Shown: positions 247 through 36,459 of the stretch, piece after piece
Position numbering within the stretch: position 1 is the first letter of the stretch
Layout: every line of letters starts with the position of its first letter
From: Geminicoccaceae bacterium
GTDB lineage: Bacteria > Pseudomonadota > Alphaproteobacteria > Geminicoccales > Geminicoccaceae
Assembly (NCBI GenBank): GCA_007694015.1
Contig: RECO01000159.1
Location: 1-38,372, forward strand
Direction of reading: 5' to 3'
DNA length: 38,372 bases
The notes under the pieces: generated by a model
Told to the model about the DNA's origin: nothing
Databases searched by the model: none
What the model saw: the letters and a program-made list of their open reading frames with translations, nothing else
Made by a program: the position numbers and the translations under genes

Positions 247-951
247 TTACGCCTCGCCCTTGATGCGGGCGTTTTCATAGCGTTTGCGGTTGCTTTCGTT
301 GGGCGGGTAGAGGCCGGGCAGGGCGGCGCCGGCTTCGACCTCCTTGCCGATCCAGGCTTCGAGGCGTTCCTGTTCGAGGCCGGCGGCGACGACTTCGCCC
401 ACGAGGTCTTGGGGAATGCAGACGGCGCCGTCCTGGTCGCAGACGATGACGTCGCCCGGAAAGACGGCGACGCCGCCACAGCCGATGGGCTGTTCCCAGG
501 CGACGAAGGTGAGGCCCGCGACGGAGGGCGGTGCGGCGGTGCCAGAAGCCCAAACGGGCAGGCCGCTTTTCTCGACGCCTTCGAGGTCGCGGACGACGCC
601 GTCGGTGACCAAGGCGGCCACGCCGCGCTTGGCCATGCGTGCGCAGAGGATGTCGCCGAAGATGCCGGCGTCGGTGACGCCCATGGCATCGACCACGGCG
701 ATGCAGCCTTCGGGCATGGCCTCGATGGCGGCACGCGTGGAGGTGGGCGACGACCAGCTCTCGGGCGTGGCGAGGTCTTCGCGCGCCGGCACGAAGCGCA
801 GCGTGAAGGCAGGCCCGGCGATGCGCTGCCCCTCGCCCACCAGCGGCATCGGTCCGCGCAGCCACACGTTGCGGAGCCCCTTCTTCAACAGCACGGTGGT
901 GAGCGTCGCGGTCGAAATGCGCGTCAGATTGTTCGCGAGTTCGGGGTTCAT
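247..951 (-). CDS. RraA-like / HMG-aldolase family protein
   Basis: Encodes 234 aa of the RraA-like fold, shared by the RNase E regulator RraA and by class II 4-hydroxy-4-methyl-2-oxoglutarate or oxaloacetate aldolases/decarboxylases. The family signature is visible as VTDGVVRD, with Arg121-Asp122 the expected metal/substrate pair, preceded by a glycine-rich FGDILCARMAKRG segment. The ATG at 951 overlaps the stop of pxpA by 4 nt (ATGA), so it is translated with the 5-oxoprolinase genes. The length is some 70 aa above E. coli RraA and fits the metabolic RraA-like enzymes better. The substrate cannot be read from sequence. The operon position suggests a 2-oxo acid or an accessory role in oxoproline or cyclic-amide use; that is inference. 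Confidence 0.85.
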   Translation of the reverse strand: MNPELANNLTRISTATLTTVLLKKGLRNVWLRGPMPLVGEGQRIAGPAFTLRFVPAREDLATPESWSSPTSTRAAIEAMPEGCIAVVDAMGVTDAGIFGDILCARMAKRGVAALVTDGVVRDLEGVEKSGLPVWASGTAAPPSVAGLTFVAWEQPIGCGGVAVFPGDVIVCDQDGAVCIPQDLVGEVVAAGLEQERLEAWIGKEVEAGAALPGLYPPNESNRKRYENARIKGEA

Positions 952-1736
952 GGCTGGGCCTTCGGGTGGGTCAAATGGAAAGGTGCGAGCGTGACGCCCG
1001 CGAGTTCGAGCCGGCGGCGGATCGTCCGCGCCATGGTCAAGGCCTCGGGACCGTCGCCGTGCACGCAGATGGTTTCGGGCCGGACCTTGAGCTTCTGGCC
1101 GTGGATCGAGGTGATGGCCCCTTCCTCCAGCATGCGGAGCACGCGGTCGGCCGCCTGATCGGGGTCGTGGAGGACGGCGCCGGGGAGGTTGCGGGCGACC
1201 AGCGTGCCGTCGTCGTTGTAGGCACGGTCGGCATAGACCTCGCGCACGTGCGGCTGGCCGAGATCGGCTGCGGCCCGCTCCAAGGCGGTCGCGGCCATGG
1301 CGACCACGATGAGGTCGGGATCGCTCGCCCGCACCGCACCGACGAATTGGCTCGCCAGCTCGTCGGACTCGCTCGCCATGTTGCCGAGCGCGCCGTGGCT
1401 CTTGACGTGGGTGACGAAACCGCCGTGGGCGCGGGCGATCGCCTGCAGTGCGCCCAATTGGTAGCGCACCATGGTGGCCAGTTCCTTGGCGGTCAGGCCG
1501 AGCACGCGGCGGCGGCCGAAGCCCTGTTTGTCGTCGAATCCCGGATGGGCGCCGATGCCGACACCGTTGGCGAGTGCGCGCTCGACCGTCTGGTCCATCA
1601 CCACCGGATCGCCCGCATGAAAGCCGCAGGCGATGTTGGCGCTGGTCACGATCTCCAAAAGCGCCTCGTCGGCGCCCATCGACCACGGGCCGAAGCTCTC
1701 GCCGAGATCGGCATTCAGGTCCACGGTGAGCGTCAT
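948..1736 (-). CDS. pxpA: 5-oxoprolinase subunit PxpA (LamB/YcsF family)
   Basis: Encodes 262 aa of the LamB/YcsF family. With PxpB and PxpC it forms the ATP-dependent bacterial 5-oxoprolinase that opens pyroglutamate to glutamate in the cytoplasm. Visible family motifs in order: DLNADLGESFG at the N-terminus, ANIACGFHAGDP, IGAHPGFDDKQGFGRR, HVKSHGALGN, EVYADRAYNDDGTLV and ICVHGDGP. Length is normal for the family. The start overlaps the stop of pxpC by 4 nt and its own stop overlaps the RraA-like start by 4 nt, indicating one translationally coupled operon. The HVKSHGALGN segment differs slightly from the common VKPHGALYN. Confidence 0.95.
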   Translation of the reverse strand: MTLTVDLNADLGESFGPWSMGADEALLEIVTSANIACGFHAGDPVVMDQTVERALANGVGIGAHPGFDDKQGFGRRRVLGLTAKELATMVRYQLGALQAIARAHGGFVTHVKSHGALGNMASESDELASQFVGAVRASDPDLIVVAMAATALERAAADLGQPHVREVYADRAYNDDGTLVARNLPGAVLHDPDQAADRVLRMLEEGAITSIHGQKLKVRPETICVHGDGPEALTMARTIRRRLELAGVTLAPFHLTHPKAQP

Positions 1737-2773
1737 TGGTCGTCCATGTCCCCACTGATGACGCCGTCGATCAAGTTGACGGACAGAAGATAGGCCACGT
1801 CGTCGAGCGAGCGCAGCACCGGCCGCACCGCGGCGGCCAACCCGCCGAGCTCATGACGGTAGCGCTTCAAGGCCTCGACCGCCATGGCCTCGCTCACCGG
1901 CTGGAAGCGAAAGCGGGCACCTGCGGGCAGCTGGGCCAAGGCCGGCAAATCGGCGGTGATGACGGTGGCGAGCCGCGGATAGCCGCCCGTGGGCTGACGG
2001 TCCGCGAGCAGCACGATCGGCTTGCCGTCGCCCGGAATCTGCACGTCGCCCAGGACGACCGCGTCCGAGATGAGCGTCAGGCTGCGTTCGGTCACGAACG
2101 GCGCGCCCTGGAAGTCGAGCTTCATGCCCATGCGGTCGCGCGCGGGCGTCACGGTGAAGGTGGTGGCGGTGAAGCGCTCGCGTTCGGCCGGGGCGAACTC
2201 GCCCGCCTGCACGCCCCAGAGCACCCGCACCACCTTCGGATGCTCCTCCCAAGGGCTATCGAACGTCAGGCCGACCTTGCCCGCCGCGTCGGGGCCGGCG
2301 ACGAGCCGGTCGCCCGCCCGCAGGAGCCGCCCCTGATGCCCGCCGAACACCGCGCGCAGATGCGTCGAGCGCGAGCCCAGCACCCTTGGCACCTCGATCC
2401 CGCCGCCGAGGTGGAGATAGCCATAGACACCGCTGTCCGGCTCACAGCCACCGAGGGCCAGCACCTGGCCGGGCTCGATCACGAAGCTCGTGTTCCAGCG
2501 CACGGGCCGGCCGTCGAGCGACGCCTTGAACGCCGCCCCCGTCAACGCCACCCGCACCGCACCGCCGAAGGCCTCGTACTGGCCGCCCATCCCGACCAGT
2601 TCGACCGCAGCGAGGTCGGGCGCTTGCCCCAGGATGGCCGCACCGGCGACCAGGGCGCGCGGGTCGACGGCACCGCCCTCGGCCACGCCCTGCCGCTGAT
2701 AACCGGGGCGGCCCAAGTCCTGCACCGAGGCGGCGAGCCCGGCCTGGCGAACGATCAGCCCCCGTGCCGTCAC
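1733..2773 (-). CDS. pxpC: 5-oxoprolinase subunit PxpC (KipA/urea-amidolyase-type)
   Basis: Encodes 346 aa of the biotin-dependent carboxyltransferase-like family (KipA, PxpC). The N-terminal QAGLAASVQDLGRPGYQRQG is the hallmark opening (typically G..t.vQDlGR.G..h.Gv..gGa.D). GGYPRLATVI near the C-terminus matches the conserved GGYP region. It partners with PxpB, and the pair resembles the two halves of urea amidolyase/allophanate-hydrolase-like enzymes. It overlaps pxpB upstream and pxpA downstream by 4 nt each. No anomaly seen. Confidence 0.95.
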   Translation of the reverse strand: MTARGLIVRQAGLAASVQDLGRPGYQRQGVAEGGAVDPRALVAGAAILGQAPDLAAVELVGMGGQYEAFGGAVRVALTGAAFKASLDGRPVRWNTSFVIEPGQVLALGGCEPDSGVYGYLHLGGGIEVPRVLGSRSTHLRAVFGGHQGRLLRAGDRLVAGPDAAGKVGLTFDSPWEEHPKVVRVLWGVQAGEFAPAERERFTATTFTVTPARDRMGMKLDFQGAPFVTERSLTLISDAVVLGDVQIPGDGKPIVLLADRQPTGGYPRLATVITADLPALAQLPAGARFRFQPVSEAMAVEALKRYRHELGGLAAAVRPVLRSLDDVAYLLSVNLIDGVISGDMDDQ

Positions 2774-3510
2774 GCGATCGGCTCCACGCGCGCCACCGCC
2801 TCGCCCGCATGGGCGCGGGCCAGGAGCGTTGCCGCCTCTTCGGCACCGATCGCCTCGAATACCAACTCGTCCCCCGCCTGCAGCAAAAACGGCCGTTCGC
2901 GCTCCAAATCGAAGGCGAGAAAGGGGCTCTTACCGATCACCCACCAGCCGGTCGGCACGGTGGTCGAGGTCAACACCGTCTGCCGCACCGCGACCGCAAT
3001 CGAGCCAGGCGGCACCGCCGCCCGCACCTGGTTGCGCCGTGGCAGCGCCCACGCCTCGCCCAACATGCCCGTGTAGACGAAGCCCGGCGCAAAACCGAGC
3101 ATCCGCACCCGCTGCGCCGCCCGGCCATGGTCGGCGATCACCTCGGCCTCGCTCATGCCGAGCCTTGCCGCCACCTCGGCCAAATCGGGCCCGTCCTCGC
3201 CGCCATAATGCACCGGCACGAACCAACGCTTACGGCCCGCGGGCGGCTCCGAGGCCAACCAGTCGCGCTCGGTCAGCCACGCCTGCAGCCGTTCGGCCAG
3301 CCGCTCCGGCGCCAACACCAGCGGATCGAACCGCACCAGCACCGACCGGATCGTGGGCGCCGTCTCGACGATACCTGCCAAGCCGGCAGCGCGGACATGG
3401 GCATCGAACGCGATCACGGCATTGTTGACGGCATCGTCCGTGCGCTCGCCGAAGTCGACGAGCCAAGCGGTATCGCCTGCCAGATGCAGCTTGGGGGGCT
3501 CGGAAATCAT
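2770..3510 (-). CDS. pxpB: 5-oxoprolinase subunit PxpB (KipI family)
   Basis: Encodes 246 aa of the KipI/PxpB family, first gene of the pxpB-pxpC-pxpA-rraA-like operon. Conserved segments are GDTAWLVDFGE near the N-terminus, ERDWLASE, VPVHYGGEDGPDL, the core MLGFAPGFVYTGML, and GWWVIGKSP. The ATG at 3510 (MISEPPKLHL) was chosen because homology begins right after it. The frame stays open further upstream, but there it translates repeat sequence of a palindromic element. No strong Shine-Dalgarno precedes 3510, so the start carries some doubt; another in-frame ATG lies at 3570. Confidence 0.92.
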   Translation of the reverse strand: MISEPPKLHLAGDTAWLVDFGERTDDAVNNAVIAFDAHVRAAGLAGIVETAPTIRSVLVRFDPLVLAPERLAERLQAWLTERDWLASEPPAGRKRWFVPVHYGGEDGPDLAEVAARLGMSEAEVIADHGRAAQRVRMLGFAPGFVYTGMLGEAWALPRRNQVRAAVPPGSIAVAVRQTVLTSTTVPTGWWVIGKSPFLAFDLERERPFLLQAGDELVFEAIGAEEAATLLARAHAGEAVARVEPIA

Positions 3511-3570
3511 GCACCGGAAGGCGCCCCGTCTCGCCCGCCATGTCAAGCACGGAACGTGCTGAGCAGCCAT

Positions 3571-3720
3571 GAGGGGAAGGCAAAAGAGAAAGGGGGGACT
3601 TGATGGTCCCCCCTTGAACCCCCCAGGCAACGGCGTTGCCGTTGCCACTTTTCAAGTGGCAGCGGCAGAGCCGCTGCTCGGGGGTCCTAGGGGGCCAAAA
3701 GCCCCCTAGCCTCTTCCCTG
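3571..3720. repeat. Palindromic modular element, copy A2 (complete)
   Basis: Same layout as copy A1 with different inner stems. Left hairpin ggggggac ttgatg gtcccccc (3592-3613), then ttgaacccccca. Hairpin A is ggcaacggc/gtt/gccgttgcc (3626-3646), the linker is acttttcaagt (3647-3657), and hairpin B is gcagcggc/aga/gccgctgc (3659-3677). The right arm gggggtcctag plus gggggccaaaagccccc lies at 3680-3706, almost identical to the right arm of A1. Purine-rich flank on the left (gaggggaaggcaaaag), pyrimidine-rich on the right. It sits downstream of the thiolase gene and upstream of pxpB on the same strand. The left arm does not match the right arm here, so this copy mixes two arm types. Confidence 0.85.
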
Positions 3721-26020: not shown

Positions 26021-27730
26021 ATGTCGTCATCGTCGCTCGACGCCCTCGTCGAGGCCTATCGTCACGGCCAGCTCGACCGCCGCAGCTTCATCCGCAGCGC
26101 CACCGCCACCGGCGTCACCCTCGGCGTGGCGACGAGCCTCGCCACGCTGCACGGCAACACCGCCCATGCCAGCGCCACGACCGCCGTCGACGCCATCGCT
26201 CCAGCCTATGATTTCATCGTCGTCGGCTCGGGCTCGGCCGGAGCCGCCCTCGCCCACCGCCTCGCCACCACCAGCGACGCCCGCGTCCTGGTCTTGGAGG
26301 CCGGCGGTCCGGACGACATCCCCGAAATCCACGACCCGCGGCAATGGGGTGCGGCCCTCGGCACGGCGGCGACCAAGTGGTTTCAAACCACGCCCCAGCC
26401 GCACACCCTGGACCGCATCCACAACTGGCCCCGCGGCCACGTGCTCGGCGGCACCAGTGCCCTCAACGCCATGGTCTTCGCCCGCGGCCACCGCAGCGAC
26501 TTCGACCACTGGGCCTATGAGGGTAATGCCGGCTGGGACTACGCAAGCGTGCTGCCCCACTTCAAGGCCTTCGAAGACTACGAGGGCGGGGCGAGCGAGC
26601 TCAGGGGCAGCGGTGGCCCCCTGCACGTCTCCAAGCCGCAGCCGGGCAAGCGCCATCCGGGCGCCGAGGCGTTCATGGCCGCCGCCGCGGACATGGGCTT
26701 TCCCGAAACGCCGTCGATCAACGGCCCGGTGATGGAGGGCCCGGCCTGGGTCGACCTGACCATCAAGGACCAAAGGCGGCAGTCGACCGCCGTCGCCTTC
26801 CTCAAGCCGGCGATGGCCAGGCCCAACCTCACCGTCCTGACCGACGCGCCGGTGACCTCCTTGACCTTCGACGGCAGCCGCTGCACCGGTGTCAACTATC
26901 TGCACGGCGGTGATCTCCGCAGCGTCCGCGCCGAGCAGGAAGTCATCCTCGCCGCCGGCGCCATCGACAGCCCGCGCTTGTTGCTGCTCTCGGGTATCGG
27001 CCCCGCCGACGAACTCGGGCCCCTCGGCATCACCCCGGTCGTCGACCTCGCGGGCGTCGGCCGCAACATGCAGGACCACGTCCTCGGCGGTGGTCCCAAC
27101 TACGTCGCCCCGCATGCCCTGCCCGTCTCCGAGTACAACCACTCCGAGGTCTATATGTGGTGGCGCTCGGATGCGCGGCTGATCGCCCCGGACGTCATCG
27201 TCCTCTACGTCAGCGTGCCCTTTGCGACCGACGCGTTCGAGCTCGCCGGCGGCGAGCACGGCTGGTGCATGCTCTCGGGCCTCGCCCGTCCCTCCAGCCG
27301 CGGCTCCTTGCGTCTCGCCTCGGCCGACTTCGCCGACCCGCCGATCGTCGACCCCAACTACCTTGCCACCGAGCAGGACCGCCGCGCCTTCGCCTACGCC
27401 ACGGAACTCGCCCGCGAACTCGCCCTGCACCCGGCCTATGCCGACCAGCGTGCCCGTGAAGTCCTGCCCGGCGCCGACGTCCAGGTGGGCACGCCCGCCT
27501 GGGACGAATTCGTCAAGAAATCCGCCCACACCTACTTCCACCCGACCTCCACCTGCCGGATGGGCATCGACCAGATGGCGGTGGTGGACCCGTCCTTGCG
27601 CGTCTACGGTATCGAAGGTCTGCGCGTCGCCGATGCCTCGGTCATGCCATCCATCACCACCAGCAACACCAACGCCCCCAGCATCATGATCGGCTGGAAG
27701 GCGGCGGAACTGATCCGCGAACGGCGCTAG
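26021..27730 (+). CDS. GMC-family FAD oxidoreductase with Tat signal
   Basis: Encodes 569 aa. The N-terminus has a twin-arginine motif (DRRSFIR, Arg20-Arg21) and a hydrophobic stretch, with cleavage likely after AHA near residue 50, so a folded periplasmic flavoenzyme is expected. The Rossmann loop is VGSGSAGAALAHRL at about residue 68. GMC signatures are HVLGGTSALNAMVFARG and AGAIDSPRLLLLSGIGP. His507 (HPTSTCRMG) and Asn551 (SNTNAPS) are 44 apart, as His466/Asn510 in choline oxidase. The substrate is an alcohol, unknown. A strong GGGGAGG site precedes the ATG. The TAG stop is the border of a MITE-like element. Confidence 0.93.
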   Translation: MSSSSLDALVEAYRHGQLDRRSFIRSATATGVTLGVATSLATLHGNTAHASATTAVDAIAPAYDFIVVGSGSAGAALAHRLATTSDARVLVLEAGGPDDIPEIHDPRQWGAALGTAATKWFQTTPQPHTLDRIHNWPRGHVLGGTSALNAMVFARGHRSDFDHWAYEGNAGWDYASVLPHFKAFEDYEGGASELRGSGGPLHVSKPQPGKRHPGAEAFMAAAADMGFPETPSINGPVMEGPAWVDLTIKDQRRQSTAVAFLKPAMARPNLTVLTDAPVTSLTFDGSRCTGVNYLHGGDLRSVRAEQEVILAAGAIDSPRLLLLSGIGPADELGPLGITPVVDLAGVGRNMQDHVLGGGPNYVAPHALPVSEYNHSEVYMWWRSDARLIAPDVIVLYVSVPFATDAFELAGGEHGWCMLSGLARPSSRGSLRLASADFADPPIVDPNYLATEQDRRAFAYATELARELALHPAYADQRAREVLPGADVQVGTPAWDEFVKKSAHTYFHPTSTCRMGIDQMAVVDPSLRVYGIEGLRVADASVMPSITTSNTNAPSIMIGWKAAELIRERR

Positions 27731-27902: not shown

Positions 27903-28847
27903 TTGTCCACCGACCGCCTGCGCTGGCCGCTGGAGCGCCACCACGGCGCGCCGTCCCGTGATTTTCGGGGCTATGGCCCCGATCTCCCGAACATGGCCTG
28001 GCCGGGTGGGGCGCGGGTCGCCGTCTCGTTCGTGGTCAACGTCGAGGAGGGGGCGGAACTCAGCCTCGGCGACGGCGACGAGGCCAACGAGCACGTGTTC
28101 GAGATCGTCGAGCGCATCGAGGGTGCGGTCGATCTCTGCATGGAGAGCCACTTCGAATACGGCACCCGCGCCGGCTATTGGCGCATCATGGACGTCTTGG
28201 AGCGGCACGGGGCAACGGCCACCATGAACGCCTCGGCGCGCGCCGTCGCCCGCTCGCCCTGGCTCGCCCGCGATGCCAAGGAACGCGGCCACGAGGTCGC
28301 GGCGCACGGCTATCGCTGGGAGCGCCATGCCTGGTTCGACGAGGCCCAGGAGCGCGCCTTGATCCGGCGGACGGTCGAGGCGATCCGGGACGCCTGCGGC
28401 GAGCGCCCGATCGGCTGGCACACCCGCTCCTCGGCCTCGCCGCACACCCGCCGCCTGCTGCTGGAGGAAGGCGGCTTCCTCTACGACAGCGATGCCTACA
28501 ACGACGACGTGCCGTTCGTGGTCGAGGTCGCGGGCACGCCGCACCTGGTGCTGCCCTACGCGTTCGACACCAACGACATGCGGTTCTTCGCCCAAGGCGG
28601 CTTCACCTTCGCCGACGACTTCACCCGCTATTGCAGCGACGCCTTCGACTGGCTGTGGGACGAGGGTGCCAAGGTCCCGAAGATGATGACCATCGGCCTG
28701 CACTTGCGGATCATCGGCCGGCCGGGCCGGATTGCCGGTCTCGACCGGCTCTTGGCGCACATGCGGGCCAAGGGTGGGGTGTGGTTCGCGAGCCGCTGCG
28801 AAATCGCCCACCACGCCCGCACCCGCCTCGGCCTGGCGCCCGCATGA
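27903..28847 (+). CDS. PuuE-like polysaccharide deacetylase-fold hydrolase
   Basis: Encodes 314 aa. It resembles the metal-independent allantoinase PuuE and its relatives: ARVAVSFVVNVEEGAE, EYGTRAGYWRIMDVLERH, EVAAHGYRWERHAW, and the very characteristic SSASPHTRRLLLEEGG with FLYDSDAYNDDVPF. The NodB-type metal Asp is not evident in the first motif. The likely chemistry is hydrolysis of a cyclic ureide, amide or N-acyl bond; allantoin itself is not proven. Start TTG 27903 follows AGGAAGGGAG. Its stop overlaps the downstream amidase start (ATGA), tying both to one pathway. Confidence 0.85.
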   Translation: MSTDRLRWPLERHHGAPSRDFRGYGPDLPNMAWPGGARVAVSFVVNVEEGAELSLGDGDEANEHVFEIVERIEGAVDLCMESHFEYGTRAGYWRIMDVLERHGATATMNASARAVARSPWLARDAKERGHEVAAHGYRWERHAWFDEAQERALIRRTVEAIRDACGERPIGWHTRSSASPHTRRLLLEEGGFLYDSDAYNDDVPFVVEVAGTPHLVLPYAFDTNDMRFFAQGGFTFADDFTRYCSDAFDWLWDEGAKVPKMMTIGLHLRIIGRPGRIAGLDRLLAHMRAKGGVWFASRCEIAHHARTRLGLAPA

Positions 28848-30250
28848 CCCCAGCCACGGCGTTGGCCGCGGCACTCCAGCGCGGCACCACCTCCGCCGTC
28901 GCCGCGGTCGAAGCCTCGCTCGCCCGCATCGAGCAGCTGGAGCCGACCCTTCAGGCCTTCGTCACCGTGGCCGGCGAGCAAGCCCTCGAGCGCGCACACG
29001 CGCTCGACCGCCATCACGGCCAGCACGGACCGGTCGGCCCGCTGCACGGCATGCCCGTCGCCATCAAGGACCTGACGGCGACGGCGGGCATTCGCACCAC
29101 CCAGGGCTCCAGGCGTTTCGCGGGCGCGGTGCCGACCGAGAACGCCGCCTGCGTGCAGCGCCTGCTCGACGCCGGCGCCATCGTCATCGGCAAGACCAAC
29201 ACGCCCGAATTCGGCTTCGGTGCCGTCTGCACCAACGCCTTGCGGGGGCCGACGGTCAACCCGTGGAACCCCACCCTCACCTCCGGCGGCTCCAGCGGCG
29301 GTTCGGCCGTGGCGGTGACGACGGCCATGGTGCCGCTCGCCCACGGCACCGACTTCGGCGGCTCGGTGCGCACGCCGGCCTCGTTCTGCGGCTGTGTCGG
29401 CCTCAGACCGACGCCGGGGCGGATCGCCGACCCGGAGCGCGCCCTGGCGTGGAACGGCCTTGCGACCCACGGCGTGCTCGCGAGGTCCGTCGACGACGCC
29501 GCCTTGATGCTGGCGGTCATGGCGGGCCCGCACCCGGACGATCCGACTTCGCTGGGCCTGGCACCGATCAGCCCGAGCGGCACCGAACCGCGCCACGTTC
29601 GGGTCGCCTACAGTGCGGCGCTCGGCGAAGCCTTCCGCATCGACGCCGAGGTCCATGCGTGCTTTCGAGAGGCCGTCGACGGGGTGGCTGCCGCCTTCGA
29701 CCAGGTCGAAGAGGCTGCCCCCGACGTTCGGGGCGGCGAGGCCGCCTTCAAGACCTTGCGCGCCGCCCTCGGCTGGCATGGCAACCGGGCGCTTCTGGCC
29801 GCCGGCACGGACGACTTGAGCCCCTCCTTCATCTGGAACGTCGAAGCCGGCCGCGACGTCGGCATCGAGGCATTCTTGGCGGCCGAACAGACCCGCAGCC
29901 GCGTCTTCCGCCAGTTCCAGGCCTTCTTCCAGCGCTTCGACCTCTTGGTCCTACCGTCGGCGAGCGTGCTGCCCTTCCCCAACGCGCAAGGCGAGGTGGA
30001 CACGGTCGGGGGCGTCGCTTGCGCCACCATCATCGACTACCTCGCACCGACCTTTCTCATCTCGCTCGTGGGCTTGCCGGCGTTGAGCCTGCCCGCGCTG
30101 GTGACCGCGGACGGCCGGCCCTTCGGCCTGCAATTGGTGGCCCCGCCCTTCGCCGAAGGCAGGCTGCTTCAGGCTGCCCGCTGGCTCGAGCGTCAGGCCG
30201 GGTTTTGCCACCGCCCACCGCCCGAACTCCGCAGCGGCGATCAAGGGTGA
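28844..30250 (+). CDS. Amidase-signature enzyme (first)
   Basis: Encodes 468 aa of the amidase-signature family (Ser-cisSer-Lys triad). Lys75 lies in PVAIKDLTATAG, cis-Ser150 in TSGGSSGGSA and nucleophile Ser174 in GTDFGGSVRTPASFCG; the 24-residue spacing of the two serines is as in characterised members. It hydrolyses a carboxamide to acid plus ammonia. The substrate is not deducible; members include acylamidases, allophanate hydrolase and GatA. Lack of gatB/gatC nearby speaks against a tRNA role. Coupled to the PuuE-like gene; its end overlaps the convergent racemase gene by 10 nt. Confidence 0.93.
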   Translation: MTPATALAAALQRGTTSAVAAVEASLARIEQLEPTLQAFVTVAGEQALERAHALDRHHGQHGPVGPLHGMPVAIKDLTATAGIRTTQGSRRFAGAVPTENAACVQRLLDAGAIVIGKTNTPEFGFGAVCTNALRGPTVNPWNPTLTSGGSSGGSAVAVTTAMVPLAHGTDFGGSVRTPASFCGCVGLRPTPGRIADPERALAWNGLATHGVLARSVDDAALMLAVMAGPHPDDPTSLGLAPISPSGTEPRHVRVAYSAALGEAFRIDAEVHACFREAVDGVAAAFDQVEEAAPDVRGGEAAFKTLRAALGWHGNRALLAAGTDDLSPSFIWNVEAGRDVGIEAFLAAEQTRSRVFRQFQAFFQRFDLLVLPSASVLPFPNAQGEVDTVGGVACATIIDYLAPTFLISLVGLPALSLPALVTADGRPFGLQLVAPPFAEGRLLQAARWLERQAGFCHRPPPELRSGDQG

Positions 30251-30984
30251 AGGGTGCTGCCATCGACGGTGAAGAGACGGCCGAAGTGATGCAGCGGGGC
30301 CATGTCGACTTGAGCGCGGGCCAGGGTGGCCCAGAGGGTGAAGGCGACCGAATCGAGGATGGTGATGCCGAGTTCGGCCTCCAGGGCCCGAGCGATCATG
30401 GGGCCGCGCATGTTGGTGCAGACGATGGCGATGGCCTCGGGACGCGCCTTGGCCACCTCCCGGCAAAGTTCGGCGATGCGCGCTTCGGAGACCTCGGCAA
30501 AGGCGAAATTGTCGCTGGTCTCCAGGTGCCGCTCGGCCACGACCTCGACGCCGATCGCCGCGTAATTGGCGATGATGCGCTGCTGCACGGACCCGACATA
30601 AGGGGTCACGAGGGCGAGCCGGCGCACGCTCATGGCCGCGAGCAACGCGTTCAGACCCAGGATGGCGCTGGTGGTGGCCACACGCGTCTGCGCCTCCAGC
30701 GCGCGGGTGAGGGCCACGTCCTTGTCGAAGCCGAGCCAACTCGACGAGGTGCCGTTCCAGGCCATGACGTCGACCTTGGCGTCGACCAGGAGGTCGGCTG
30801 CCGCCTGCATCGGCGCCAGGTCGAACTGTTGGTTGGCCACAGCGTCGAGCGAGATGGTCAGCACCCGCAACCGCGAGAAATGCGCCGTGACCTCGGGGAA
30901 AAGCGGGGCCAGCAGGGCTTGGGTGTAGGGCTCGACGACGGTGTTGGACGACGGCGTGAGCATGCCGATGCGGGTCGGGGACAA
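30241..30984 (-). CDS. Asp/Glu racemase superfamily, arylmalonate decarboxylase/maleate isomerase-like
   Basis: Encodes about 247 aa. The opening SPTRIGMLTPSSNTVVEP is typical of the maleate isomerase/AMDase branch. In isomerases and racemases two cysteines act; here the first site is Gly78 (AWNGTSSSW) and only Cys189 (IVCTNMRG) remains, as in arylmalonate decarboxylase (Gly74/Cys188). Decarboxylation of a malonate-type acid, or a one-cysteine isomerisation, is therefore more likely than racemisation. Start taken as TTG 30984 from homology; ATG 30963 is the fallback. It is the only minus-strand gene of this catabolic region, divergent from the cyclase. Confidence 0.85.
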   Translation of the reverse strand: MSPTRIGMLTPSSNTVVEPYTQALLAPLFPEVTAHFSRLRVLTISLDAVANQQFDLAPMQAAADLLVDAKVDVMAWNGTSSSWLGFDKDVALTRALEAQTRVATTSAILGLNALLAAMSVRRLALVTPYVGSVQQRIIANYAAIGVEVVAERHLETSDNFAFAEVSEARIAELCREVAKARPEAIAIVCTNMRGPMIARALEAELGITILDSVAFTLWATLARAQVDMAPLHHFGRLFTVDGSTLHP

Positions 30985-31115
30985 AGCAGGAGCCTCGATG
31001 GTGGAGCGAAGCGCGTATACAGACCGGAGATGGAAGGGGACGCAAGGCTCTCGCACCTTGCCCATCTGGCGGGCATCGTGCTCAATGGCTATGCGGACTG
31101 CGCAGCCTTGGCTTC

Positions 31116-31131
31116 CAACGCGCAAGCGTTG
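31116..31131. promoter_or_regulatory. Inverted repeat in the racemase/cyclase divergent gap, possible operator
   Basis: caacgc (31116-31121), spacer gcaa, gcgttg (31126-31131), a perfect 6-bp palindrome midway in the 253-nt divergent region 30985-31237. Such a site could bind a dimeric regulator controlling both directions, but no regulator gene is in the window and no clear -35/-10 boxes were found. A second gttgcaaacg-like half site occurs near 31148. Weak evidence; a chance palindrome is possible. Confidence 0.25.
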
Positions 31132-31237
31132 CGAGGGTGGCACGGCCGTTGCAAACGAACGGCACCAACGAAGACGATGACTGGGTGAGGACGATGATCG
31201 GCAACGGTGAGACCAGCAGCGTGCGGAGGCTTGGCCC

Positions 31238-31930
31238 GTGCGCTTGATCGACCTTTCCCGCGAAATCCGCCACCGCGGCCCCACCCTGCCCAACCATCCC
31301 CCGGTCACCATCGTCCCCTACTGGACGCACGACGATGCGCGCGAAGCGGAGGGCGTTGCCTTCACCATCGCCACCCTATTCATGACGCTCGGCGACCACA
31401 GCGGCACGCACATCGACGCGCCCCGTCACTTCGACGCCTCGCCGGATGCCTTGTCCATCGACCAGATGCCGTTGGAGCGCTTCTTCACCGAGGCGGTCTG
31501 CCTGGATCTCTCCCACAAACCCCTGCGCAGCGACATCGAGGTGGCCGACCTCGAGGAGGCCGAAGCAGCATCCGGCGTCACCATCCAGCCCGGCGACACC
31601 GTCCTTCTGCACATGGGCGTCGAGGCGCGGCTCGGCGAAGGTCCGGGCTATCTGACCGACTTTCCGGGCCTCACCAAGGCAAGCGCCGAGTGGCTGGGCC
31701 ACAAGGGCGTCGGTATCTTCGGCGTCGAGGCGCTGAGCCCCGGCCGGCCCTTCAAGAACAATTTCGAAGTCCACATCGCCTGCCGCGATTTGGGTTTCAC
31801 GCACATCGAGGGCCTCGTGAACCTCGACAAGCTCGTCGGCCAGGGGCGGTTTCGCTTCATCGGCTTTCCGTTGCGGATCAAGGGCGGCACCGGCAGCCCG
31901 ATCCGCGCCGTCGCCTGGCTCGACGGCTGA
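31238..31930 (+). CDS. Cyclase-family (PF04199) metal hydrolase
   Basis: Encodes 230 aa of the family that includes kynurenine formamidase KynB and isatin hydrolase. The metal-binding motif is intact: GDHSGTHIDAPRHF (H-x-GTH-x-D-x-P-x-H-F). The N-terminal RLIDLSREI and the IQPGDTVLLHMG segment also fit. It hydrolyses a formamide, lactam or similar bond; the substrate is unknown. The start is GTG 31238 with GGAGG 9 nt upstream. The TRAP genes follow after 47 nt on the same strand, suggesting that the imported compound or a derivative is its substrate. Confidence 0.92.
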   Translation: MRLIDLSREIRHRGPTLPNHPPVTIVPYWTHDDAREAEGVAFTIATLFMTLGDHSGTHIDAPRHFDASPDALSIDQMPLERFFTEAVCLDLSHKPLRSDIEVADLEEAEAASGVTIQPGDTVLLHMGVEARLGEGPGYLTDFPGLTKASAEWLGHKGVGIFGVEALSPGRPFKNNFEVHIACRDLGFTHIEGLVNLDKLVGQGRFRFIGFPLRIKGGTGSPIRAVAWLDG

Positions 31931-31977
31931 CCCGTCCCCACTTCGTTCCCACCCGCTTCATCCGAGGGAGATAGCCC

Positions 31978-33027
31978 ATGCGCATCCATGCCACGGCGAC
32001 GTTGGCCGCTGCGGCGGCGTTGTTCGCCACCACCACCGCCGGCGCCGAGACCATCCGCCTCAACGTTTCCGGGCTGGTGTCGACGCACATCCACCACACC
32101 GCCTTGGAGCGCGCCTTTTTCGAGGGCTTGGCCGAGCGCACTGGGCTCGACGTCCGGGTGAACTTCAACCCGCTCGACGTCATCGGCGTCACCATGGACG
32201 ACACCATGCGCATGGCCGGTGACGGCACCTTCGACATCGTGCAGTCGACCATCGGCAGCGTCGCCCGCGACGACACCTTCCTGGAAGGCATGGACCTCAT
32301 GGGGGTGTCGCCGACCTTGGCCGACCTGCGCGAGGCCGTGGACGCCTTCCGCCCGGCCCTTACCGCGCGCGCCGAAGAACGCTTGAACGTCAAGGTCCTG
32401 GCCGTCTGGCCGTTCGGCCAGCAGCACGTGTTCTGCAAGGAGCCGATTTCGAGCCTGACCGACCTCCGCGGCAAGCGGGTGCGCAGCTTCAGCCGCAGCA
32501 TGTCGGCGGTGCTGGAATATGTCGGCGCCACGCCGGTTTCGATGCCGTTCGCCGAGGTCTACCCGGCGTTGCAGCGGGGTGTGGTCGAATGCGCGATCAC
32601 CTCGATCACCTCGGCCAATAGCGGCAGCTGGCCCGAGATCACGACGCACGTCCTCGCCATCGCGCTCTCGAACGGCATCAACGCCCACTTCATGAATCTC
32701 GACAGCTGGAACGCGCTGTCGCCGGAGGCCCAAGAGGCCTTCACCGAGGCCTTCAAGGAGGCGGAGGACGCGTTCTGGGATCTCACCGAGAGCATGTACG
32801 ACGACGCCATGCGCTGCAGCACCGGCCTCGAGCCCTGCGAACACTACAACCGCTTCAACATGACCCGGGTCGATCCGAGCGAGGCCGATCTGGCGCTGCT
32901 CGCCGAGGCCGTCGACAACGTGGTGCTCGACGTCTGGGCGAATGCCTGCCAGCCCCGCGCCGAATGCGTCGAGATCTGGAACGCGACCGTCGGTGCCGTC
33001 CGCGGCTTCGAGATGGCGGCGAACTAA
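31978..33027 (+). CDS. TRAP transporter solute-binding protein (DctP family)
   Basis: Encodes 349 aa with a signal peptide ending ATTTAGAE. DctP features: TFDIVQSTIG, a KVLAVWPFGQQHVFCK strand, SSLTDLRGKRVRSFSRSMS with the conserved Arg that binds the ligand carboxylate, and PFAEVYPALQRGVVECAITS. It is longer than average at the C-terminus, with several Cys (CSTGLEPCEHYN, NACQPRAECVE) that may form disulphides. The ATG has GGGAG upstream. First gene of a dctP-dctQ-dctM unit, separated from dctQ by a large hairpin array. Confidence 0.93.
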   Translation: MRIHATATLAAAAALFATTTAGAETIRLNVSGLVSTHIHHTALERAFFEGLAERTGLDVRVNFNPLDVIGVTMDDTMRMAGDGTFDIVQSTIGSVARDDTFLEGMDLMGVSPTLADLREAVDAFRPALTARAEERLNVKVLAVWPFGQQHVFCKEPISSLTDLRGKRVRSFSRSMSAVLEYVGATPVSMPFAEVYPALQRGVVECAITSITSANSGSWPEITTHVLAIALSNGINAHFMNLDSWNALSPEAQEAFTEAFKEAEDAFWDLTESMYDDAMRCSTGLEPCEHYNRFNMTRVDPSEADLALLAEAVDNVVLDVWANACQPRAECVEIWNATVGAVRGFEMAAN

Positions 33028-33029
33028 GA

Positions 33030-33131
33030 AAGCGCTTCGGGGGGCTTTTGCCCCCCCCGCGCCCCCCAGGCAGCGGCAAGGCCGCTGCCACTTTTCGAAG
33101 TTGCCGTGGCGCCAGCCACGGCCGGGGGTTT
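33030..33131. repeat. Palindromic modular element, copy A4
   Basis: Left arm cggggggcttttgcccccccc (33038-33058), hairpin A ggcagcggc/aag/gccgctgcc (33069-33089), linker acttttcgaagtt (33090-33102), hairpin B gccgtggc/gcca/gccacggc (33103-33122), then the right arm beginning gggggtttcc. The plan is the same as A1 and A2, again with its own stem sequences. The right arm continues into five tandem hairpin units. Confidence 0.85.
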
Positions 33132-33340
33132 CCAAGGGGGCATAAAGCCCCCTTGGCTTTCCCTCACCCTTCCCTTGGGGGGCATAAAGCCCCCTTGGCT
33201 TTCCCTCACCCTTCCCTTGGGGGGCATAAAGCCCCCTTGGCTTTCCCTCACCCTTCCCTTGGGGGGCATAAAGCCCCCTTGGCTTTCCCTCACCCTTTCC
33301 TTGGGTGGCCAAAAGCCCCCTTGGCTTCCTCCCTTACCTG
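33132..33340. repeat. Five tandem 42-bp hairpin units between dctP and dctQ
   Basis: The first unit is a perfect palindrome ccaagggggc/ataaa/gcccccttgg (33132-33156). The cataaag loop recurs at 33141, 33183, 33225 and 33267, and as ccaaaag at 33309, each exactly 42 bp apart. Between hairpins lies ctttccctcacccttccc, the pyrimidine flank of the family. The fifth unit carries the gtggccaaaagccccc arm variant found in A1 and A2. The array looks like tandem amplification of the right arm of copy A4. It may stabilise or separate dctP mRNA from the permease mRNA. Confidence 0.9.
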
Positions 33341-33354
33341 TTGGAGTGGGTCTC

Positions 33355-33924
33355 ATGCTCGATCGGGTTCACGCGTTTCTCGAAGGCACGACCCGGTTGG
33401 GGGCGATCCTGGCGGGCTATGCGCTGTTGGGGTTGGCGCTGGCCATTTGCGCCGAGATCGCGCTCCGGCGCTTGGCCAATTTCTCGTTGCAAGGCGTGGA
33501 CGAGGTCGGCGGCTACGTGCTCGCCGGCATCTCGGGCTTTGCCTTTGCCTTCGGCTTGATGCAGCGCGCGCACACCCGGATCGACATCGTGTTGCGGCTG
33601 ATGCCGGCCTGGGGTCAGGCGACCTTGAACCTCTTGGCGGCCGTGATCTTTGCCGGCATTGCCGTGTTCATGGCCGTGCGCGCCCATGCCACGCTGGACC
33701 GGAGCCTGCAGCTCGGAAGCCTCGCCTCCACCCCGTTGCAAACACCCTTGTGGATCCCCCAGACCATCTGGCTGGTCGGGCTCACCCTGTTCGCCGTGGT
33801 CGCCGTGTTCCTGGCTTTTCGCGCCGTCGTCGCCGTGTTCGAGGGCACGCGGGCGGTCAACGCCATCGCCGGGCCGCCGACGCTGCAGGAGGAAATCGAC
33901 GCCGAGCGGAGTGACCGGCCATGA
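33355..33924 (+). CDS. TRAP transporter small permease (DctQ family)
   Basis: Encodes 189 aa with four hydrophobic segments (LAGYALLGLALAICAEIAL, YVLAGISGFAFAFGL, LLAAVIFAGIAVFMAV, IWLVGLTLFAVVAVFLAF). QGVDEVGGYVLAGI and QRAHTRIDIVL match the family pattern with the conserved Arg-Asp. The ATG at 33355 follows GGAG. The frame upstream is open through the repeat array only because the unit length is a multiple of three. dctM overlaps its stop by 4 nt. Confidence 0.92.
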   Translation: MLDRVHAFLEGTTRLGAILAGYALLGLALAICAEIALRRLANFSLQGVDEVGGYVLAGISGFAFAFGLMQRAHTRIDIVLRLMPAWGQATLNLLAAVIFAGIAVFMAVRAHATLDRSLQLGSLASTPLQTPLWIPQTIWLVGLTLFAVVAVFLAFRAVVAVFEGTRAVNAIAGPPTLQEEIDAERSDRP

Positions 33925-35222
33925 TCGACGCTGCGGGCGCTCTCGGCGGCTTCGCCTTCCTCTTGATCCTGATGTTCCTAGGATTGCCGGTGGGCGTCGC
34001 CATCCTGGTCATCAGCATCGCCGGGGCCGCCATCTTCATCGGCTGGCGGCCGGTGATGGCCTACGGCACCCAGACCTGGTCCTATCTCAACAACTTCGTG
34101 CTCACCGCCGTGCCCTTGTTCATCCTGTTGGGTGAATTGCTGCTGCGCGCGGGCCTGACCGAGAAGATGTACACCTCGCTCTCGGACTGGGTGCGGGGCA
34201 TGCCCGGACGGCTTTTGCACACCAACGTCTTTGCCTGCGGCCTGTTCTCGGCCGTTTCGGGCTCGTCGGTGGCGACCGCCGCCACCATCGGCACGGTGGC
34301 GCTGAAGGACTTCTCCAAGCGCGGCTACAACGACCGGCTGGTGCTCGGTACGATCGCGGCGGGTGCCACCCTCGGCATCCTGATCCCGCCGAGCATCAAC
34401 CTGATCATCTACGGCGCGATGACCAACACCTCGATCGGCCGCCTGTTCATGGCCGGTGTGGTGCCGGGTTTGCTGCTGATCGGCGTGTTCGTGATCGCCA
34501 TCATGCTGATCGCCGCCGCCCGGCCGAAGCTGATCGGCGGCGCCGACGCGGTCGATCCCTTGCCCGTGCGCTTGAAGCGGCTGCGCTATTTGCTGCCGCC
34601 GCTTGCCATCTTCGTCATGGTGATGGCGACGATCTATCTCGGCTGGGGCACCCCCACCGAAGCCGCTGCCGTCGGCGTCGGCATGGCGCTGGTGCTGGCC
34701 GCCGCCAATCGCCGTTTGAGCTTCCATTATCTGCACGAGGTGTTCGTCTCGACGGTGCGGCTGACGGCGATGATCCTGTTCATCCTGACCGCCGCACTCT
34801 TCATGAACTTCATCATCGGCTTCCTCGGCGTCCCACGCGCCATGACACAGCTGGTGAGCGATCTCGGCCTGACGGTGGCCCAGACCATCATGGTCTTGAT
34901 CATCTTCTACTTCGTGCTCGGCCTCTTCATGGAGGCCTTGGCGATGATGGTGGCGACGGTGCCGGTCATCTTCCCCCTGATCATCTTTCTCGGCATCGAC
35001 CCGATCTGGTTCGGCATCTTTCTCGTCTTGATGATGGAGGTGGCACTGATCACCCCGCCGATGGGGCTCAATCTCTACGTGGTGCAGGGCATTCGCGGGC
35101 GCGGCTCGATCAACGACGTGTTCATCGGCGTCATCCCGTTCATCTTCTGCATGTTCGTCGTCGTGGCGCTGATCATCGCCTTCCCCGGCATCGTCACCTG
35201 GCTGCCGAATTTGATGTTCTGA
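33921..35222 (+). CDS. TRAP transporter large permease (DctM family)
   Basis: Encodes 433 aa, the sodium-coupled translocating subunit with about 12 membrane segments. Characteristic stretches: TAVPLFILLGELLLRAGL, FACGLFSAVSGSSVATAATI, GATLGILIPPSINLIIYGA, GWGTPTEAAAVG and ALITPPMGLNLYVVQGI. The ATG overlaps the dctQ stop (ATGA). It completes the importer; ligand identity should follow the DctP protein. Confidence 0.95.
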   Translation: MIDAAGALGGFAFLLILMFLGLPVGVAILVISIAGAAIFIGWRPVMAYGTQTWSYLNNFVLTAVPLFILLGELLLRAGLTEKMYTSLSDWVRGMPGRLLHTNVFACGLFSAVSGSSVATAATIGTVALKDFSKRGYNDRLVLGTIAAGATLGILIPPSINLIIYGAMTNTSIGRLFMAGVVPGLLLIGVFVIAIMLIAAARPKLIGGADAVDPLPVRLKRLRYLLPPLAIFVMVMATIYLGWGTPTEAAAVGVGMALVLAAANRRLSFHYLHEVFVSTVRLTAMILFILTAALFMNFIIGFLGVPRAMTQLVSDLGLTVAQTIMVLIIFYFVLGLFMEALAMMVATVPVIFPLIIFLGIDPIWFGIFLVLMMEVALITPPMGLNLYVVQGIRGRGSINDVFIGVIPFIFCMFVVVALIIAFPGIVTWLPNLMF

Positions 35223-35226
35223 GCCC

Positions 35227-36459
35227 GTGTCCGAACCCAACGCCCTCGACGCGGCGGCCCAACACCAGGGGCTAGGCGCCTTCACCCAACTCGTGGACCG
35301 GCTGGGTGCCGGGCCGGTCATGGCGGTGAAGGACAACATCGACGTCAGGGGCCTTGTCACCGCCGCCGGCATCGGGGCCTGGCGCGACCGGGTCGCCACC
35401 GCCGATGCCGAGGTGGTCGCCCGCTGGCGCCGGGCCGGCGGCGAAATACTCGGCAAGACCAACATGCACGAGGGTGCCCTCGGCGTGACCACCGACAACG
35501 CCGCCTTCGGCCGCTGCCACAACCCGGCCGTGCCCGGTGCCGTGCCCGGCGGCTCCAGCGGCGGGTCGGCCGCGGCCGTCGCCGCCTGCATCGTCGACGT
35601 TGCCCTCGGCACCGACACCATGGGCTCGGTACGCATCCCGGCGAGCTATTGCGGTATCGTCGGCTTCAAGCCGGGCTTCGCCGTGCTCCCCACCACCGGC
35701 GTCGTCCCGCTGAGCTGGACCCTGGACCACGTCGGCCTCCTCGCCCGCGACGTGACGGCGGCCCGCGTCGCCTTCGCCCAGCTCGCTGGCCCGGCCCCAA
35801 GACGCAGCGAGACGCCGAGCCAGCGCCGCTTTCTGGTCCCCTCACAACTCGACGACCTGGAACTGGCCCCGAGCGTGCGCCAAGCCTTCGAGGCCGCCCT
35901 TCGGGCCTTGGCCGCCCAGGGCCACACGGTAACCCAGAGCCGCCTCGACGGCTGGCAAGCGGACGAACTGCGCCGCGACGCCCTCCTCGTTGCCGAGGTC
36001 GAAGGTGCGGTGCTCTTTCAAGACCTCATGGCGGAGCCTTCGAGCGACATCACCCCCGCCTTCCGCGCCCTGCTCGACTACGGCCGCCGCCTGCCCGCCC
36101 CGCGCTACGCCCTCGCTTTGCACCGCTGCCAGAGCTTCGGCCAACGCCTGCAACGGCAACTGCGCGACTACGACGCCTGCCTCCTCCCCACCACGCCTGC
36201 CCCGGCCTTCCCCCACGACACCAAGCCCCCCGCCGACGTCGCCACCCTGACGGTGCCCGCCAACGCCGCCGGCCTGCCCGCCCTCTCCCTCCCCCTCCCC
36301 GTCACCGGCCCACCCATCGGCCTCCAACTGATGACCGCCCCCGAACGCGACCACGAACTGTTGACGCTGGCAGGTGAGGTGGAAGCCGTGATCGGGCGAG
36401 AGGAAAAGAAGAAGGAAGCCAAGGGGGCTTTTGGCCCCCTTGGAAACCCCCGAGCCTGA
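35227..36459 (+). CDS. Amidase-signature enzyme (second), C-terminus from repeat
   Basis: Encodes 410 aa. The triad is intact: Lys35 (MAVKDNIDVRG), cis-Ser110 (PGGSSGGSAAAVAA) and Ser134 (GTDTMGSVRIPASYCG). The N-terminus is about 40 residues shorter than in the first amidase. It starts at GTG 35227, 4 nt after dctM, so it is co-transcribed with the TRAP importer and probably acts on the imported compound or a product. The last 18 or so residues (REEKKKEAKGAFGPLGNPRA) are encoded by the flank and left arm of palindromic copy A5, with the stop inside the element. Confidence 0.93.
   Translation: MSEPNALDAAAQHQGLGAFTQLVDRLGAGPVMAVKDNIDVRGLVTAAGIGAWRDRVATADAEVVARWRRAGGEILGKTNMHEGALGVTTDNAAFGRCHNPAVPGAVPGGSSGGSAAAVAACIVDVALGTDTMGSVRIPASYCGIVGFKPGFAVLPTTGVVPLSWTLDHVGLLARDVTAARVAFAQLAGPAPRRSETPSQRRFLVPSQLDDLELAPSVRQAFEAALRALAAQGHTVTQSRLDGWQADELRRDALLVAEVEGAVLFQDLMAEPSSDITPAFRALLDYGRRLPAPRYALALHRCQSFGQRLQRQLRDYDACLLPTTPAPAFPHDTKPPADVATLTVPANAAGLPALSLPLPVTGPPIGLQLMTAPERDHELLTLAGEVEAVIGREEKKKEAKGAFGPLGNPRA

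Follow-up and report, generated by a model that had tools for sequence, protein, structure and literature searches.

Which compound is degraded by the products of the genes clustered at positions 27903-36459 of contig RECO01000159.1 of a Geminicoccaceae bacterium, and do these genes serve a common pathway? The window analysed here is the whole stretch of 38,372 nt (contig C2 of a 3.8-Mb draft genome in 322 contigs, 93% complete). The region encodes a PuuE-like hydrolase, a protein related to arylmalonate decarboxylase (AMDase), a PF04199 cyclase, two amidases and a tripartite ATP-independent periplasmic (TRAP) transporter, and probably brings together genes for the TRAP-mediated uptake and the degradation of an anionic cyclic ureide or imide of the hydantoin or dihydropyrimidine type. 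The DctPQM transporter would import the ring acid, the PuuE-like enzyme, the cyclase or both would act as C-N hydrolases that open the ring to give a linear carbamoyl or amide acid, and the two amidases would afterwards free ammonia. The AMDase-like enzyme, with a single catalytic cysteine, would isomerise or decarboxylate the compound or its open form at the alpha carbon. We infer import, step order and substrate class from the gene identities, the intact catalytic motifs and the recurrent neighbourhoods described below. The genes are the following:

27903..28847, plus strand: PuuE-like, putative ring-opening hydrolase of the polysaccharide-deacetylase fold (PF01522), TTG start with AGGAAGGGAG upstream
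28844..30250, plus strand: amidase 1, amidase-signature family (PF01425, 333 bits)
30241..30984, minus strand: AMDase-like enzyme of the Asp/Glu racemase superfamily (PF17645, 69.7 bits), TTG start
31238..31930, plus strand: cyclase-family metal hydrolase (PF04199), relative of isatin hydrolase and kynurenine formamidase
31978..33027, plus strand: TRAP solute-binding protein DctP (PF03480; NF037995 above cut-off)
33355..33924, plus strand: TRAP small permease DctQ, 189 amino acids (PF04290)
33921..35222, plus strand: TRAP large permease DctM (PF06808; TIGR00786 318.8 bits, above cut-off)
35227..36459, plus strand: amidase 2, amidase-signature family (PF01425, 263.9 bits), GTG start

Pfam confirmed all the gene families named in an original prediction made from the sequence of this region, with small corrections of position. 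Their strong family matches, together with a coding-type GC content at third positions in most of them, indicate that these open reading frames are not due to chance.

The cyclic-ureide assignment is based on the recurrence of the components around HydA (a dihydropyrimidinase, or hydantoinase), Asp/Glu-type racemases and the allantoin-pathway genes of Halomonas, which supports the cyclic ureide named among the substrates first proposed (an anionic amide or cyclic ureide). We surveyed 80 loci centred on AMDase-like genes, the best 80 by score of at least 541 relatives in genome contigs, many of them from Halomonas. Neighbours were counted within 10 kb, with identity thresholds chosen for this analysis and genes called in the relatives by a simple codon-composition script. 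A DctP-type TRAP protein is encoded at 49 of these 80 loci, HydA at 46 and both at 35; an Asp/Glu-type racemase (28/80), an amidase (16/80) and a PuuE-type protein (14/80, four of them from the clade PuuE-B defined below) are also found. Neighbourhoods in which the AMDase-like gene lies beside TRAP or HydA genes span Hyphomicrobiales, Rhodobacterales, SAR116 and Halomonas. A more even sample of 385 alphaproteobacteria contains 18 genomes with the AMDase-like clade, the window's own included, and HydA is present at 11 of the 18 AMDase-like loci from other genomes. PuuE-B and AMDase-like genes co-occur in five genomes for 0.5 expected (hypergeometric p 6e-5, uncorrected for kinship), and lie at most 30 kb apart in two of these five.

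The plasmid cluster of Salipiger sp. CCB-MM3 (NZ_CP014599, 220-236 kb), arranged as ABC-PuuE-B-amidase-racemase followed by HydA-AMDase-like-DctPQM-amidase, shares with the window the PuuE-B-amidase pair, the AMDase-like gene and the DctPQM genes followed by an amidase gene. Unlike the window, it carries HydA, a second racemase and an ABC importer and lacks a PF04199 cyclase, and its amidases (32-35% identity) are not close orthologues of those of the window. The nearest relatives of amidase 1, in Azospirillum brasilense (54%) and Leptolyngbya (49%), are each encoded beside an AMDase-like gene, and in Paracoccus an amidohydrolase-DctMQP array faces AMDase-like-GntR-HydA genes. In Halomonas, one flank of the AMDase-like-DctPQM-HydA block encodes ureidoglycolate lyase, ureidoglycine aminohydrolase and a PuuE scoring 534 bits; the other encodes a thiamine pyrophosphate enzyme, a xylose-isomerase-like protein and a NAD-binding dehydrogenase, a set that resembles a glyoxylate carboligase route. 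The cyclase also has such partners: contig 92 of alphaproteobacterium G084 carries a PuuE-B gene tail to tail with a cyclase gene (42%), then TRAP genes, with a hydantoinase B subunit upstream, and we found the arrangements TRAP-cyclase-amidase in Indioceanicola, cyclase-amidase-cyclase-HydA-DctM in genome G102 and cyclase-amidase-ABC-amidohydrolase in another Geminicoccaceae genome (G001). On an accessory plasmid of Sinorhizobium meliloti HM006, genes for a class V aminotransferase, DctPQM, an amidase, a FAH-family protein and an AMDase-like protein form one array, a further variant.

We read the cluster as a further case in which a TRAP importer is joined to a cyclic-ureide/hydantoin toolkit that is widespread and apparently uncharacterised; in other bacteria this toolkit includes HydA, Asp/Glu-type racemases and TRAP or ABC importers. 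A literature search found no paper on the AMDase-like/TRAP/HydA cluster, which is a weak negative. TRAP import in ureide catabolism has already been proposed, since the purine-use genes of marine SAR116 and SAR11 include PuuE, allantoin racemase and a purine TRAP transporter (PMC11698098). The original prediction had stated that the gene set matches no textbook pathway. This holds for the exact combination, which appears new, whereas the exclusion of hydantoin and uric acid degradation was too strong: every component and most of the pairings occur elsewhere, and parts are related to those systems. If this reading is right, proteins usually annotated singly as 'polysaccharide deacetylase', 'cyclase', 'amidase' or 'Asp/Glu racemase' would join one class of cyclic-ureide catabolism with specific importers.

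Several observations weigh against this reading. HydA, the usual partner, is absent from the window, its orthologue (C211:129-1532, 59% to the Salipiger HydA) lying at the edge of a separate 3.7-kb contig, where it adjoins a pyridine-nucleotide oxidoreductase gene. The AMDase-like gene is read in the direction opposite to all the others, and the cluster contains no regulator gene. The cyclase is found at none of the 80 AMDase-centred loci, and its nearest orthologues (66-68% identity) occur in other contexts, indicating that this family is versatile and that its link to the set is suggestive only. A DctP-type TRAP protein is encoded at only 2 of the 18 evenly sampled loci, so that the figure of 49 out of 80 reflects a similarity-ranked sample. 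Finally, conserved co-occurrence, the test proposed with the original prediction, is borne out for subsets such as the TRAP/AMDase-like pair, but its six components (PuuE-like hydrolase, AMDase-like enzyme, cyclase, two amidases and TRAP importer) occur together in no other genome examined.

The layout of the locus bears on the same question. The PuuE-like and amidase 1 genes share four nucleotides (ATGA, 28844-28847) and the cyclase gene precedes dctP by 47 nt, both as first described, whereas the overlap reported between the TRAP permease and amidase 2 is a 4-nt gap (DctM stop at 35222, amidase 2 start at 35227), the real overlap being that of the DctQ and DctM genes (4 nt, 33921-33924). The AMDase-like gene is convergent with amidase 1, their 3' ends overlapping by 10 nt, and divergent from the cyclase gene, about 250 bp away. 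Strand and spacing suggest three transcription units rather than one; the AMDase-like gene, being on the opposite strand, stands outside any operon with the others. Scanning for the sigma-70 consensus yielded no promoters, which is uninformative at 69% GC, and no Rfam family or tRNA was detected in the window. The PuuE-amidase pair, the lone AMDase-like gene and the cyclase-TRAP-amidase operon could thus be neighbours without a common pathway, as the three units, the lack of a shared regulator, the lack of an identical set elsewhere and the common, versatile families of the cyclase and amidases would allow. We consider this unlikely, given that component pairs recur in distant lineages (TRAP/AMDase-like, amidase 1-type/AMDase-like, PuuE-B/cyclase/TRAP and TRAP/cyclase/amidase).

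The PuuE-like protein aligns over its full length with the solved PuuE allantoinases 1z7a and 3cl6 (E 1e-84) and shares with PuuE allantoinases the motifs HGYRW and DTNDMRF. Its score on TIGR03212 (320.8 bits) is below the PuuE equivalog cut-off of 424.6. A second PuuE encoded in the same genome, on contig C27 beside a weak match to ureidoglycolate lyase, scores 395.5 bits, also just below the cut-off, and the Halomonas PuuE scores 534.2 bits. A phylogeny built from 42 sequences supports, at 97/96, a true-PuuE group that includes the C27 and Halomonas proteins and excludes the window protein; the latter groups (68/99) with sequences sharing 57-70% identity with it, a clade hereafter called PuuE-B, whose members score 263-321 bits on TIGR03212. 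Judging from these sequence data, the window protein is the second PuuE-type paralogue of its genome. Unlike PuuE allantoinases, the PuuE-B clade is tied to ABC importers, hydantoinases and racemases, its neighbours elsewhere also including an amidase and, once, the cyclase and TRAP genes. Canonical allantoinase was rejected as a family assignment on the basis of score, clade and the presence of another PuuE in the genome.

The region could nevertheless be an ordinary second set for purine ureides (allantoin/allantoate), the PuuE-like protein acting as an isoallantoinase whose substrate enters through a purine TRAP importer. The end-to-end similarity to solved allantoinases, the superlocus of Halomonas, where AllE and AllA accompany a true PuuE, and the purine TRAP transporter among SAR116 purine genes (PMC11698098) agree with this idea. 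It is rendered quite improbable by the true-type PuuE already present beside the weak ureidoglycolate lyase match, by the position of PuuE-B (263-321 bits against 424.6) outside the true-PuuE group, and by the absence from the window of any recognisable allantoate or ureidoglycolate enzyme.

The overlap of the hydrolase and amidase genes raises another explanation, a cyclic-imide pathway in which the PuuE-like protein would hydrolyse cyclic imides and amidase 1 would act as its half-amidase, yielding dicarboxylates. There is a two-step precedent in fungal nicotinate catabolism, established by gene deletions and metabolite analysis, in which the imidase HxnM, related to the cyclic imide hydrolase of P. 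putida, is followed by the amidase HxnN (PMC9304392). The Aspergillus step thus resembles the window in coupling a ring opener of the polysaccharide-deacetylase fold with an amidase. However, HxnM sits in the cyclic imide hydrolase/HpPgdA branch and not in that of PuuE, and the window protein matches 3qbu, the closest solved relative of HxnM (PMC9304392), far less well (E 7e-13) than PuuE allantoinases (E 1e-84). Moreover, no maleate isomerase follows. This pathway has little likelihood in our opinion, and a maleimide route ending in maleate isomerase is rejected on account of the missing first cysteine of the AMDase-like protein.

This cysteine is central to the interpretation of the AMDase-like enzyme. 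The AlphaFold2 model of the protein (local confidence, pLDDT, 96) is closer to maleate isomerase (template modelling score, TM, 0.86) than to AMDase (TM 0.81), and the PSSN motif is shared with the maleate cis-trans isomerases (2xec, 4fq5), which have two catalytic cysteines. At the first of these sites the window protein has G-T-S (G78-T79), leaving C189 as the single catalytic cysteine; the first cysteine is missing, and both G78-T79 and C189 are invariant, in all 43 clade members. This pattern argues against maleate isomerisation, and hence against the maleate-type acid first envisaged, as well as against classical two-cysteine racemisation. AMDases are defined by the lack of the first cysteine, a catalytic second cysteine and the G74/C188 pattern (PMC4996985), and the window protein displays a pattern of this type. 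It shares with arylmalonate decarboxylase (EC 4.1.1.76) the fold, the G-T-S first site, the single cysteine of the second site and the oxyanion-hole tyrosine; true AMDases also have TRAP, ABC or TTT transporter genes as neighbours (PMC4996985). On the other hand, identity is only about 25%, with PSSNT instead of PPAxG and CTN instead of CGG: the AMDase motifs PPAxGxVPxE, LMGTSLSF and ILLSCGGL (PMC4996985) are replaced by TPSSNTVVEP, AWNGTSSSW and AIVCTNMRG. The scores on NF052327 (62.9 bits, cut-off 225) and on TIGR02990, the EutA family of ectoine utilisation (78.9 bits, cut-off 318), are far below threshold. The protein thus belongs to a distinct single-cysteine clade that is neither maleate isomerase nor curated AMDase, and a substituted malonate is a possible substrate.

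We tentatively suggest, as a rather speculative extension, that the members of this clade share a native function in the breakdown of ureides and hydantoins, where they would isomerise or decarboxylate either the ring acid or the carbamoyl compound formed from it, with different ring openers (HydA, PuuE-B or the PF04199 cyclase) assembled around one importer-isomerase core. If true, this would hint at what some members of the family do in nature, little being known of its role in metabolism. The cyclic-ureide reading of the window would, for its part, give a short, testable list of substrates for this AMDase-related clade and its at least 541 relatives in genome contigs.

The cyclase has an intact metal motif (HSGTHIDAPRH, fitting H-x-G-T-H-x-D-x-P-x-H) and scores 109.8 bits on PF04199, well above the family cut-off of 23.1. 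Family and motif are common to isatin hydrolases and kynurenine formamidases (5nmp, 4j0n, 4cz1), and the closest solved structures are isatin hydrolases, with weak matches (best E 3e-15). The score on the kynurenine formamidase model TIGR03035 is only 63.2 bits for an equivalog cut-off of 223, and no tryptophan-catabolism genes were recognised near the cyclase gene. A tryptophan/kynurenine route was discarded because partner genes were not recognised and the cyclase remains below the arylformamidase cut-off. The proposal that the cyclase simply replaces HydA is weakened by the G102 locus, in which two cyclases, an amidase and HydA occur together.

The P, Q and M subunits of the TRAP transporter are encoded in this order (PF03480, PF04290, PF06808). 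The best matches of DctP to solved structures (4nap and 4pgn, about 196 residues, E 1e-18) are too distant for a transfer of ligand. The start of DctQ is probably the ATG at 33355 rather than position 33106, because the 5' part of the longer frame is a repeat array. Both amidases have intact motifs of the Lys/cis-Ser/Ser triad (AIKD-GGSSGGS-GTDFGGSVR in amidase 1 and AVKD-GGSSGGS-GTDTMGSVR in amidase 2); the nearest relative of amidase 2 is from Tistrella (49%).

A palindrome, CAAGGGGGC-(4 nt)-AGCCCCCTTG, is dispersed over the genome: 82 forward matches were counted with at most one mismatch, against none for the reversed control. One copy opens the 42-bp tandem array (4.6 copies, 33136-33327) between dctP and dctQ, the palindrome region extending from 33133 to 33327. 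Another copy (36420-36442) overlaps the 3' end of the amidase 2 gene and encodes the odd C-terminal tail of this protein.

The PuuE-like gene is preceded on its own strand, at a distance of 172 nt, by a gene for a GMC oxidoreductase with a twin-arginine-like N-terminus (26021-27730, plus strand), for which we saw no conserved association with the cluster. At 948-3648 of the same contig, the minus strand carries LamB/YcsF and CT_A_B carboxyltransferase genes, a 5-oxoprolinase (PxpABC)-like set that represents another system opening cyclic amides. Elsewhere in the genome, contig C149 encodes two dihydropyrimidinase-like proteins and an amidase beside a second, distant AMDase-like protein (28%), possibly another ureide set of the same organism.

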